Source: an uncultured Gammaproteobacteria bacterium (GTDB taxonomy: Bacteria > Pseudomonadota > Gammaproteobacteria > UBA4575). Taken from it: a stretch of 64,000 bases of DNA. Location of the stretch: positions 1,205,501 through 1,269,500 of the forward strand of contig OX638335.1 in the NCBI GenBank assembly GCA_951812785.1, written 5' to 3'. The notes under the pieces are model-generated. The model did no database searches and was not told the origin of the DNA. It was given only the letters and a program-made list of their open reading frames with translations. The position numbers and the translations under genes were made by a program. The stretch's first letter is position 1, and the number at the start of each line of letters is the position of its first letter. Positions 1,960 through 4,746 of the stretch are shown one piece after another.

Positions 1960-2232
1960 ATGTCTTACACCGTTGTATTATTAGATCGCGCTGGCAATGC
2001 ATCTCCACCACTGCCATGTGACATTCACTGCAATAGTACTGAATTAGAAATTGATGCAGAGCTATCTTATAAATATATCAATAGTTCACACACAGCTCAT
2101 ATCATGGATAAAAATGAAGTTGCAAGCAAACATTCTGTGTTGGGATATAGCTTTCTTGGTGAAGCTGTTATCAACAACGTCAGTGCATCACGCTACGGGA
2201 AATATATATTAGCTATAAGCATAGCGAGTTAA
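1960..2232 (+). CDS. Hypothetical 90-residue protein
   Basis: The ORF starts with ATG at 1960 and ends four bases inside the 3' end of the convergent RuBisCO-like gene. The protein (MSYTVVLLDRAGNASPPLPC...) contains two closely spaced Cys in a PCDIHC motif and ends in a mildly hydrophobic stretch. I recognise no family. There is no clear Shine-Dalgarno sequence, so this is a plausible but unproven gene. The convergent arrangement with a 4-bp overlap is compact and gives some support. Confidence 0.4.
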   Translation: MSYTVVLLDRAGNASPPLPCDIHCNSTELEIDAELSYKYINSSHTAHIMDKNEVASKHSVLGYSFLGEAVINNVSASRYGKYILAISIAS

Positions 2233-3800
2233 TCAACGACAATTGGTTTATCTCGATCGCGGTCAACAATGCAGTAAAATCCAAATGGCTCAGCATTGAA
2301 ATTCTTTAACTGATGAATTGCCATAGGTTTTATATATAAGACATCATTTTTCTTTGCGATGTATTGCTTATCACCAACAACCACTTCACCTTCACCGCGC
2401 ACCACGATAATCACATGGGTATGCTGATGCATTTCCTTACTTGAAAAGCCATTTTGGGTCACTTCGAAATAACGCAGATCAAATTTAGATTTCTCTCCAC
2501 TCTGACCAACTAATTCAACTCTACGAATACCCTCAAATGAAATATTGTTAGTTTTTTTGTAATTAACACTTTCTCTACCTAACCAGTTAAAATCATCAAA
2601 CTCTATATACTCAAGCAATGAGCTAGTTGATCTAGCATCATATTCACATGCTGAAATAGATTGTATTTTTCCAGTCATTGTAATTGTTTCAGGAAATTCC
2701 TCTAATATTTTTGCTTTAAAATCACGCGTTGACTCAGATAGTTTCTCAGAATGCTCTAACAAGGAGCCACCCAACAGCAATACTGAATCTTTTTGATACC
2801 ATTGACACATTTCATCTAGCTGTGAATACTGCATACCGCCGGCAGGACAAGGAAAAGCAGACTTTAAATTTGCTAATGGCCTGTGCAATTCATCTGCTAT
2901 CTTTTTACAATCATGCTCTTCAAACTGGAATCTACCCCCTGTATTTGGAAATACTGAAATATCGACACCAGCCAACCTGAATAAAAATCCATATAACAAG
3001 TGATGACTCATACCGTCATTGGGAGCCACACAATAGCTTCCAGTAAATGATGGATGGGCCATATAAATAAGGTTGTACTTAGAAGCCAACCCTCTTGCTG
3101 TATCCAATCCAATAATCAATGGCGCCAATAACACACCTTGCACCCCCTGACTCTTAATCCATTCAAAATACATTTCTATTTTTTCATAAGGAGCAGATAT
3201 GAATGGGAAGTAAAGACAATGTTTACCAGTCTTGTCTTCTGCTTTTTTAACTGCGTTTAAACATAATGCCACTCTATGTTTAAACTCCTCAAAACTACCA
3301 ATTAGATTTTGATCATCTTTAATAATATCTCCACCACCTAAAGCAAACTCATAAGCAAGATCTGCAAATTTCTCATCACTATAGCCTCGTGGTTTTAATG
3401 CGGTTGCTAACAATGGTCTTTCATACACGCCTAAACACTCGCGTACCCCATCAACACCAAATCCAGGCCCAGCGAAAGGTGCAAGTAGCTTGTCTGGAAG
3501 ATCCACACCGATACACTTAACATTCTGATACATAGAGACATTGCCAAAACATAAGTTAATTAGCTGATTATATTGTTGACTTAATATTTCTTCAGGATAA
3601 CTAAGCGTAATTGTAAATTTACCAGTGTGATTGCTCACTGGAATAATTTGTTCAATTCTGCCAACAAATTTAGTTTCTATTTCAGGTGTAATCAAAGACT
3701 CAGGCGTTTCAACACTCTGTTCTATTGCAATTTTTCTTGCAAGATCAGATACATCTGCTTTATCTGAAATGACTTGGTATGTAACAGCAATATCTGACAT
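2229..3800 (-). CDS. RuBisCO-like protein (form IV) fused to a C-terminal cupin domain
   Basis: 523 residues. Residues 1 to about 400 are a RuBisCO-like protein: the N-terminal alpha/beta domain, then a barrel with TALKPRG (Lys136, equivalent to RuBisCO Lys175), GGGDIIKDDQ (Lys161, the carbamylated Lys201 position, and Asp163) and FPNTGGRFQF typical of form IV proteins. The usual Glu of KDDE is Gln164, so bona fide carboxylase activity is not expected. Residues about 405-523 are a cupin with HQHTH at 458-462 and a late His at 496. In Rhodospirillum rubrum a separate RuBisCO-like isomerase and a cupin methylsulfurylase act successively in the methylthioadenosine-isoprenoid shunt, turning methylthioribulose-1-phosphate into methylthioxylulose-5-phosphate and then DXP. 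I infer that this chain combines both steps. No other methionine-salvage gene lies nearby. Confidence 0.88.
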   Translation of the reverse strand: MSDIAVTYQVISDKADVSDLARKIAIEQSVETPESLITPEIETKFVGRIEQIIPVSNHTGKFTITLSYPEEILSQQYNQLINLCFGNVSMYQNVKCIGVDLPDKLLAPFAGPGFGVDGVRECLGVYERPLLATALKPRGYSDEKFADLAYEFALGGGDIIKDDQNLIGSFEEFKHRVALCLNAVKKAEDKTGKHCLYFPFISAPYEKIEMYFEWIKSQGVQGVLLAPLIIGLDTARGLASKYNLIYMAHPSFTGSYCVAPNDGMSHHLLYGFLFRLAGVDISVFPNTGGRFQFEEHDCKKIADELHRPLANLKSAFPCPAGGMQYSQLDEMCQWYQKDSVLLLGGSLLEHSEKLSESTRDFKAKILEEFPETITMTGKIQSISACEYDARSTSSLLEYIEFDDFNWLGRESVNYKKTNNISFEGIRRVELVGQSGEKSKFDLRYFEVTQNGFSSKEMHQHTHVIIVVRGEGEVVVGDKQYIAKKNDVLYIKPMAIHQLKNFNAEPFGFYCIVDRDRDKPIVVD

Positions 3801-4218
3801 TAGAAAATTTCCTTAATTTCTTGAATATCTACTTCTCAACTAGATAGTAGGTAAAAAATCACGATCGAATGAGTCGGTAGACCTAAAAAGTGAAAATTAA
3901 GTTTTACCGATAACCCAAGTAACCACACTAACATTTGGTATCTTGTTATGGAGACAGTATATACAGACTTTGAATAAGCAAAAATCAAACGCAAAATAAC
4001 TAAAATAGTTTCAGATCCAGTTTCTATTGGCGGCGCAGGTTAAGCTGTAGATACTATATTACTCAGATCTCTTCTTGATACATCTCAAGAGAGATTATGA
4101 ATAACATTATAATGCATCTGATTCATATACAATCAATTCTAAATCCATACTAAATTATTTAAAAGTATGTCAAAATTATGGTCAACAGATTTGACTTAAA
4201 TTCAGCAACAGCTATATA
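3801..4218. other. AT-rich intergenic stretch, no gene seen
   Basis: About 420 bp between the start of the RuBisCO-like gene and the decayed membrane-protein gene. No ORF with a credible start, no tRNA and no clear hairpin terminator was found. The promoter of the RuBisCO-like gene should lie at its left end, reading leftward. Confidence 0.5.
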
Positions 4219-4746
4219 ACTAAAAAAGGGTCACTTCATCATGCATTAGCCACTCTATTGTTACTCACTTCCGCTTCGTTATTTGCTGATGATATCTACG
4301 TCTCTAAAGAAAAAAATCAATACAATACCAGGCAAGAAAGCCTGTTTGGTGGAAGATTAGATAATTTTGTTGTTCAGATTAACTTGGCTTCATATCACCC
4401 TGGTCATACTAGTGAGTACAATCAATTTAATCGTGGCATCGGCATCGAATATCATTATGACTCTTTCTTCTTAGCTGGCGGTTACTTCTGGAACAGTTTA
4501 TATTGAGATAGTTTTTATGCTGGCGCGGGCAAAGAGTTTACTTTTGGTGATGTAGAGTGGATAGGCCTAGGCGCAATCGGGGGATTAATTACTGGATACA
4601 GTGATGGGCAGAAACCCAGGCCCGCGTTAATTCCTTATCTATTTTTCACCACAGGTAGATGCACTTTAAAAGTGCACTACCTTCCCGAAATAGATGAAGT
4701 CGAAGACGATGCATGTGGCTTCACATTAAGAATCAAGTTTGATTAG
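4219..4746 (+). pseudogene. Decayed envelope protein gene: lost start codon and internal TGA
   Basis: One reading frame runs from about 4219 to TAG at 4746 with a single in-frame TGA at 4504-4506. It opens with a good signal peptide, KKGSLHHALATLLLLTSASL then FADD, but the codon where ATG is expected (4219-4221) is ACT; a TTG at 4258 is the only nearby start and would cut the signal peptide. The two halves fit together across the stop: aromatic and Gly-rich strands alternate on both sides, as in small outer-membrane beta-barrels. It is therefore read as one gene with two point lesions rather than two ORFs. The family is not recognised. Sequencing error is possible for either lesion. Confidence 0.55.

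Follow-up and report, generated by a model that had tools for sequence, protein, structure and literature searches.

The question raised by this locus is whether one gene of the window (the whole stretch of 64,000 nucleotides analyzed here) encodes, in a single polypeptide, two proteins that act one after the other in the MTA-isoprenoid shunt, namely a RuBisCO-like protein (RLP) and a cupin. The sequence-only reading had placed a single 523-residue frame at positions 2229 to 3800, with K136, K161, D163, Q164 and an HQHTH stretch as landmarks, and both the coordinates and the residue numbers were found to be right, HQHTH lying at residues 458 to 462. The frame runs from ATG to TAA with no stop between the domains. 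It lies on the minus strand (3800 to 2229), which had been left unstated; the plus strand of the same interval is full of stops. By direct reading, a Shine-Dalgarno-like AAGGA (3810 to 3814, minus strand) was located 9 bases before the ATG.

All parts of the gene are given on the minus strand. Residues 1–365 (2706 to 3800) make up the RuBisCO-like domain, residues 366–400 (2601 to 2705) a fast-evolving linker, and residues 401–523 (2232 to 2600) the cupin domain. Using Pfam, RuBisCO_large was matched at residues 116–351 (9.6e-24) and Cupin_2 at residues 446–511 (9.3e-10), both above cut-off. The AlphaFold2 model, for which 26 own or related sequences served as input, had a mean pLDDT of 88 and consisted of two well-folded domains separated by a stretch predicted to be disordered (residues 377–398, pLDDT < 50). 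Ratios of pN/pS, calculated according to Nei-Gojobori and rough because synonymous sites are near saturation, were 0.13–0.16 for the RLP part, 0.22–0.34 for the cupin part and 0.42–0.89 for the linker. Purifying selection acts on both domains.

The fusion is read here, with a probability of roughly 80% as judged from sequence, as a bifunctional enzyme. The N-terminal RLP domain would isomerize 5-methylthioribulose-1-phosphate (MTRu-1P) to 1-methylthioxylulose-5-phosphate (MTXu-5P), acting as an MTRu-1P 1,3-isomerase (an RLP of the DeepYkr type), and the C-terminal cupin would act as an MTXu-5P methylsulfurylase, removing the methylthio group at the expense of a thiol reductant to give methanethiol and 1-deoxyxylulose-5-phosphate (DXP). 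In Rhodospirillum rubrum, the thiol reductant is glutathione. DXP would enter the MEP pathway, while methanethiol could return to methionine, in the shunt by way of O-acetylhomoserine sulfhydrylase; a sulfur by-product of polyamine synthesis would in this way yield methanethiol and an isoprenoid building block for quinones and cell-wall carriers. We infer that the fusion would be of benefit by holding two consecutive activities close together and in a 1:1 ratio.

For the cupin domain, the leading relatives of solved structure in phmmer searches were 3ibm (2e-26), 3kgz (5e-17) and 3jzv (8e-16), the unrelated cupins following at 1e-6, about nine orders weaker than 3jzv. The structure 3jzv is named Rru_A2000, which is the characterized MTXu-5P methylsulfurylase of R. 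rubrum (PMC4958253). No grouping with unrelated sugar isomerases was observed, in keeping with the methylsulfurylase role that had been suggested for the domain. Cupin motif 1 (His-x-His-x-His) is formed by H458, H460 and H462 (2415 to 2429) and is invariant in the fusions, Rru_A2000, 3kgz and 3ibm. The motif 2 histidine, H496 of an HQ pair (2313 to 2315), was identified from the alignments, and a conserved cysteine, C510 (2271 to 2273), lies in GFYCIV; together with the motif 1 histidines, these residues are invariant in every aligned fused and unfused member. Pfam matches of the cupin to AraC_binding and mannose-isomerase families were attributed to generic cupin overlap, and an unrelated isomerase or regulator was rejected on the ranking against solved structures.

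A shifted activity of the fused cupins is possible in view of their position in the unrooted cupin tree, where a long branch leads to a 100/100 clade made up of the fused ones, next to the unfused methylsulfurylases. The fused proteins also depart from the unfused group at sites that the latter conserves, for example with GFYCIVD in place of GFLCMVN. In that event the isomerase step would have been kept, while the cupin would have drifted to another thiol-ether sugar phosphate, to the sensing of a regulatory metabolite or to a purely structural part. Such drift is considered improbable, given that the metal-site histidines and the conserved cysteine are all invariant, that the pN/pS of the cupin part remains low at the values above, and that the unfused homologues are encoded directly beside an RLP gene.

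The best solved relative of the RLP domain was the Rhodopseudomonas palustris RLP 3qfw (5e-65 in phmmer, the next at 7e-36), to which the fold was also matched by Foldseek with a TM score of 0.93 by target length. R. palustris has two RLPs, of which RLP1 (RPA2169) was assayed and isomerizes MTRu-1P with a kcat of 1.3 per s (PMC5893883). Because 2qyg is rlp2 of R. palustris, 3qfw should be RLP1 by elimination. In the RLP tree, a split supported at 99/98 separated 27 shunt-type RLP rows, including 3qfw and the fusion, from seven others (RuBisCO, MtnW and other RLPs). The isomerase proposed beforehand is thus a good fit, as the domain groups with 3qfw in a clade to which neither RuBisCO nor MtnW belongs. 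In the LKP motif, the catalytic lysine K136 (3393 to 3395; RuBisCO K175) is invariant among the fusions and also present in 3qfw. The metal-site motif K161-D162-D163-Q164 (3309 to 3320) aligns with RuBisCO K201-D-D203-E204; K161 and D163 are likewise invariant among the fusions, and the position of E204 is taken by Q164 here and by His in 3qfw.

The NCBIfam model with the best E-value was of the MtnW type (NF007095, 3.5e-55), and classical methionine salvage does include a cupin-type dioxygenase (ARD/MtnD), with MtnBD fusions known (PMC3698126). The protein could accordingly be imagined as a condensed enzyme of classical methionine salvage, in which an RLP part acting as DK-MTP-1P enolase (MtnW), or with some other RLP activity, is joined to a dioxygenase-like cupin. 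This is deemed very unlikely: the scores reached less than half of the curated MtnW cut-offs (187 of 409 and 136 of 513.6 bits), MtnW falls outside the RLP clade in the tree, its motif is KDDE and not KDDQ, and the relatives of the cupin are methylsulfurylases rather than ARD. A RuBisCO identity was rejected along with MtnW, both being placed outside the clade; the curated cut-off for RuBisCO form III was missed as well (146 of 497 bits), with the E204 equivalent replaced by Q164.

The fused frame was found in nine genomes of three gammaproteobacterial families, with identities of 38–80%. Besides the genome of the window, the carriers are G002, G003, G004, G008 and G010 of the same family, G165 and G276 of a second and G078 of a third; G005 is a probable further carrier, whose contig stops before the cupin part. 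In the class sample, five of 369 genomes held the fusion, that of the window included, whereas in the phylum sample the latter was the sole carrier. Conservation extends over the whole length of the frame in the eight other genomes, and the fusion is real, far beyond chance. Relatives had been singled out in advance as the place where a stop missed between the domains would come to light, and none was found. An artefact of assembly or annotation, with two separate proteins actually being made, can be dismissed as scarcely credible: RLP and cupin frames overlap by 4–11 bases in related genomes, so that altering one base could, on paper, turn two genes into one or one into two, but the open fused frame with its similar linker length recurs in all nine genomes, and the fusion genes of four same-genus species are identical in length at 1572 bases. 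A single origin of the fusion would agree with the cupin tree, in which the fused cupins constitute one clade; the RLP tree gave G078 no resolved position.

Unfused gammaproteobacterial homologues of the RLP and the cupin are encoded by neighboring genes, and the frames overlap in four of the six pairs. The RLP stop and the cupin start share an ATGA in G089 and G278, the overlap amounts to 11 bases in G218 and to about 4 in G330, and the genes abut or nearly so in G108 and G229. Starting from such an arrangement, a minor alteration could be enough to produce the fusion. Since the unfused homologues lie directly beside the RLP gene, the pairing of the two predates or parallels their fusion. Shunt-type RLP genes without an adjoining cupin were also observed, directly after genes for a split transketolase/DXS-like enzyme, in G194 (L052, 9030 to 11146; C-terminal half only) and G248 (L053, 8035 to 11197; both halves). 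The RLP product possibly has a different fate in these two genomes, and the dxs of G248 itself is in pieces in different frames.

With respect to known systems, the R. rubrum shunt (Rru_A1998 RLP and Rru_A2000 cupin) involves the same two families in sequence, and the cupin of the fusion is directly homologous to Rru_A2000; mtnA and dxr are shared with the genome of the window. In R. rubrum, however, the two proteins are separate, and in place of a clear MTA phosphorylase the genome of the window has an S-methyl-5′-thioinosine (MTI) phosphorylase and an MTA-deaminase-like enzyme. The closest solved RLP, 3qfw (by elimination RLP1 of R. palustris), is not fused to the cupin RPA2170 and has KDDH where the fusion has KDDQ. 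Unfused pairs of the Halorhodospira type (G089, G218, G278 and the pair of cupin 3ibm, which we take to be the H. halophila protein) resemble the fusion in that, among the gammaproteobacterial relatives, the RLP gene overlaps or adjoins the cupin gene, but the two are not joined, and the cupins fall in a clade separate from the fused ones. H. halophila has been named as having both genes (PMC4958253). Tetrahymena MtnBD and MtnAK are likewise fusions of consecutive methionine-salvage enzymes (PMC3698126, PMC6302742), although of different enzymes, in a eukaryote and in an oxygen-dependent salvage route. That the chemistry of the fused protein would be carried over from R. rubrum and R. palustris is the best-supported interpretation (PMC5893883, PMC4958253), set against an identity to the characterized proteins of about 30–40% per domain.

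The sequence-only reading knew of no described fusion of these two proteins, and in the open-licence literature no description of an RLP-cupin fusion was found either. Provisionally, the fusion is therefore regarded as new as a joined form of an already known pathway. It provides independent, evolutionary evidence that RLP and cupin act on one and the same intermediate of the pathway. Predicted to convert MTRu-1P to DXP on a single chain, it could also serve as a test object for effects of proximity or channelling and for the replacement of DXS.

The steps on either side of the bifunctional enzyme are encoded in the genome of the window, with a nucleoside phosphorylase and mtnA upstream and dxr downstream. 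The MTAP-family gene scores over the curated cut-off as MTI phosphorylase, and mtnA adjoins a TRZ/ATZ hydrolase gene of the MTA deaminase type. Given these three genes, MTA would be processed via methylthioinosine to MTR-1P and on to MTRu-1P. Both mtnA and the MTAP-family gene were present in 29 of 29 genomes tested, also in relatives without RLP, so the pathway can be complete but their linkage to the RLP is not shown by this. No HMG-CoA reductase was found in the genome of the window by a targeted search. Both an intact dxs and dxr are present there, and the shunt is consequently unneeded for DXP in this organism.

One relative differs in this respect. The gene order xseB-ispA-dxs-folE2 of the genome of the window was compared with that of the unfused relative G089 (contig C2, about 147443 to 149211; L092), in which xseB, ispA and folE2 are adjacent and no dxs stands between the latter two. 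G089 retains dxr, mtnA, an MTAP-family gene and the overlapping RLP-cupin pair, and no HMG-CoA reductase was found in it; the RLP-cupin pathway may be its only source of DXP. A published survey proposed the shunt as a possible stand-in for Dxs in five species (PMC10663253), and the clean loss between intact neighbors makes G089 a concrete place to test such a replacement. G002, a single-contig genome of the same genus as the window, lacks ispA, dxs, folE2 and also bamC, four genes that adjoin in the genome of the window. One missing block, whether a real deletion or an assembly hole, explains this pattern, and the absence of dxs from G002 was discounted as evidence for dependence on the shunt.

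The substrate channelling between the two sites that the sequence-only reading proposed is conjectural. A fixed tunnel is not favored by the flexible linker, with its 22 residues of predicted disorder (377–398). The relatives of both domains are likely oligomeric, and such assembly would cluster the active sites. It is rather doubtful that the RLP site hands MTXu-5P straight to the cupin site and that, in addition, the pathway is the sole DXP source in some relatives (the unfused G089 and possibly the fused G002). If so, channelling would hide MTXu-5P from the cytosol and pull the reversible isomerization forward, and isoprenoid synthesis in such relatives would hang on the recycling of a polyamine by-product instead of on DXS.

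Finally, the surroundings of the fusion gene were inspected. No operon with pathway genes was found at the locus, the neighbors in the window being unrelated (a HIT protein, a CitMHS transporter and an aminotransferase), and neither a SAM riboswitch nor any other Rfam element reached the gathering threshold in the window or at eight fusion loci. In G165 (L048, 10908 to 13494), the fusion gene adjoins bacA/uppP on the opposite strand, which encodes undecaprenyl-diphosphate phosphatase, an enzyme of isoprenoid carriers; this may be chance. At positions 4258 to 4743 of the plus strand of the window, a protein is cut by an in-frame TGA at 4504, reflecting either a pseudogene or a sequence error; its same-genus counterparts, which belong to no Pfam family, are conserved and 172–189 residues long.
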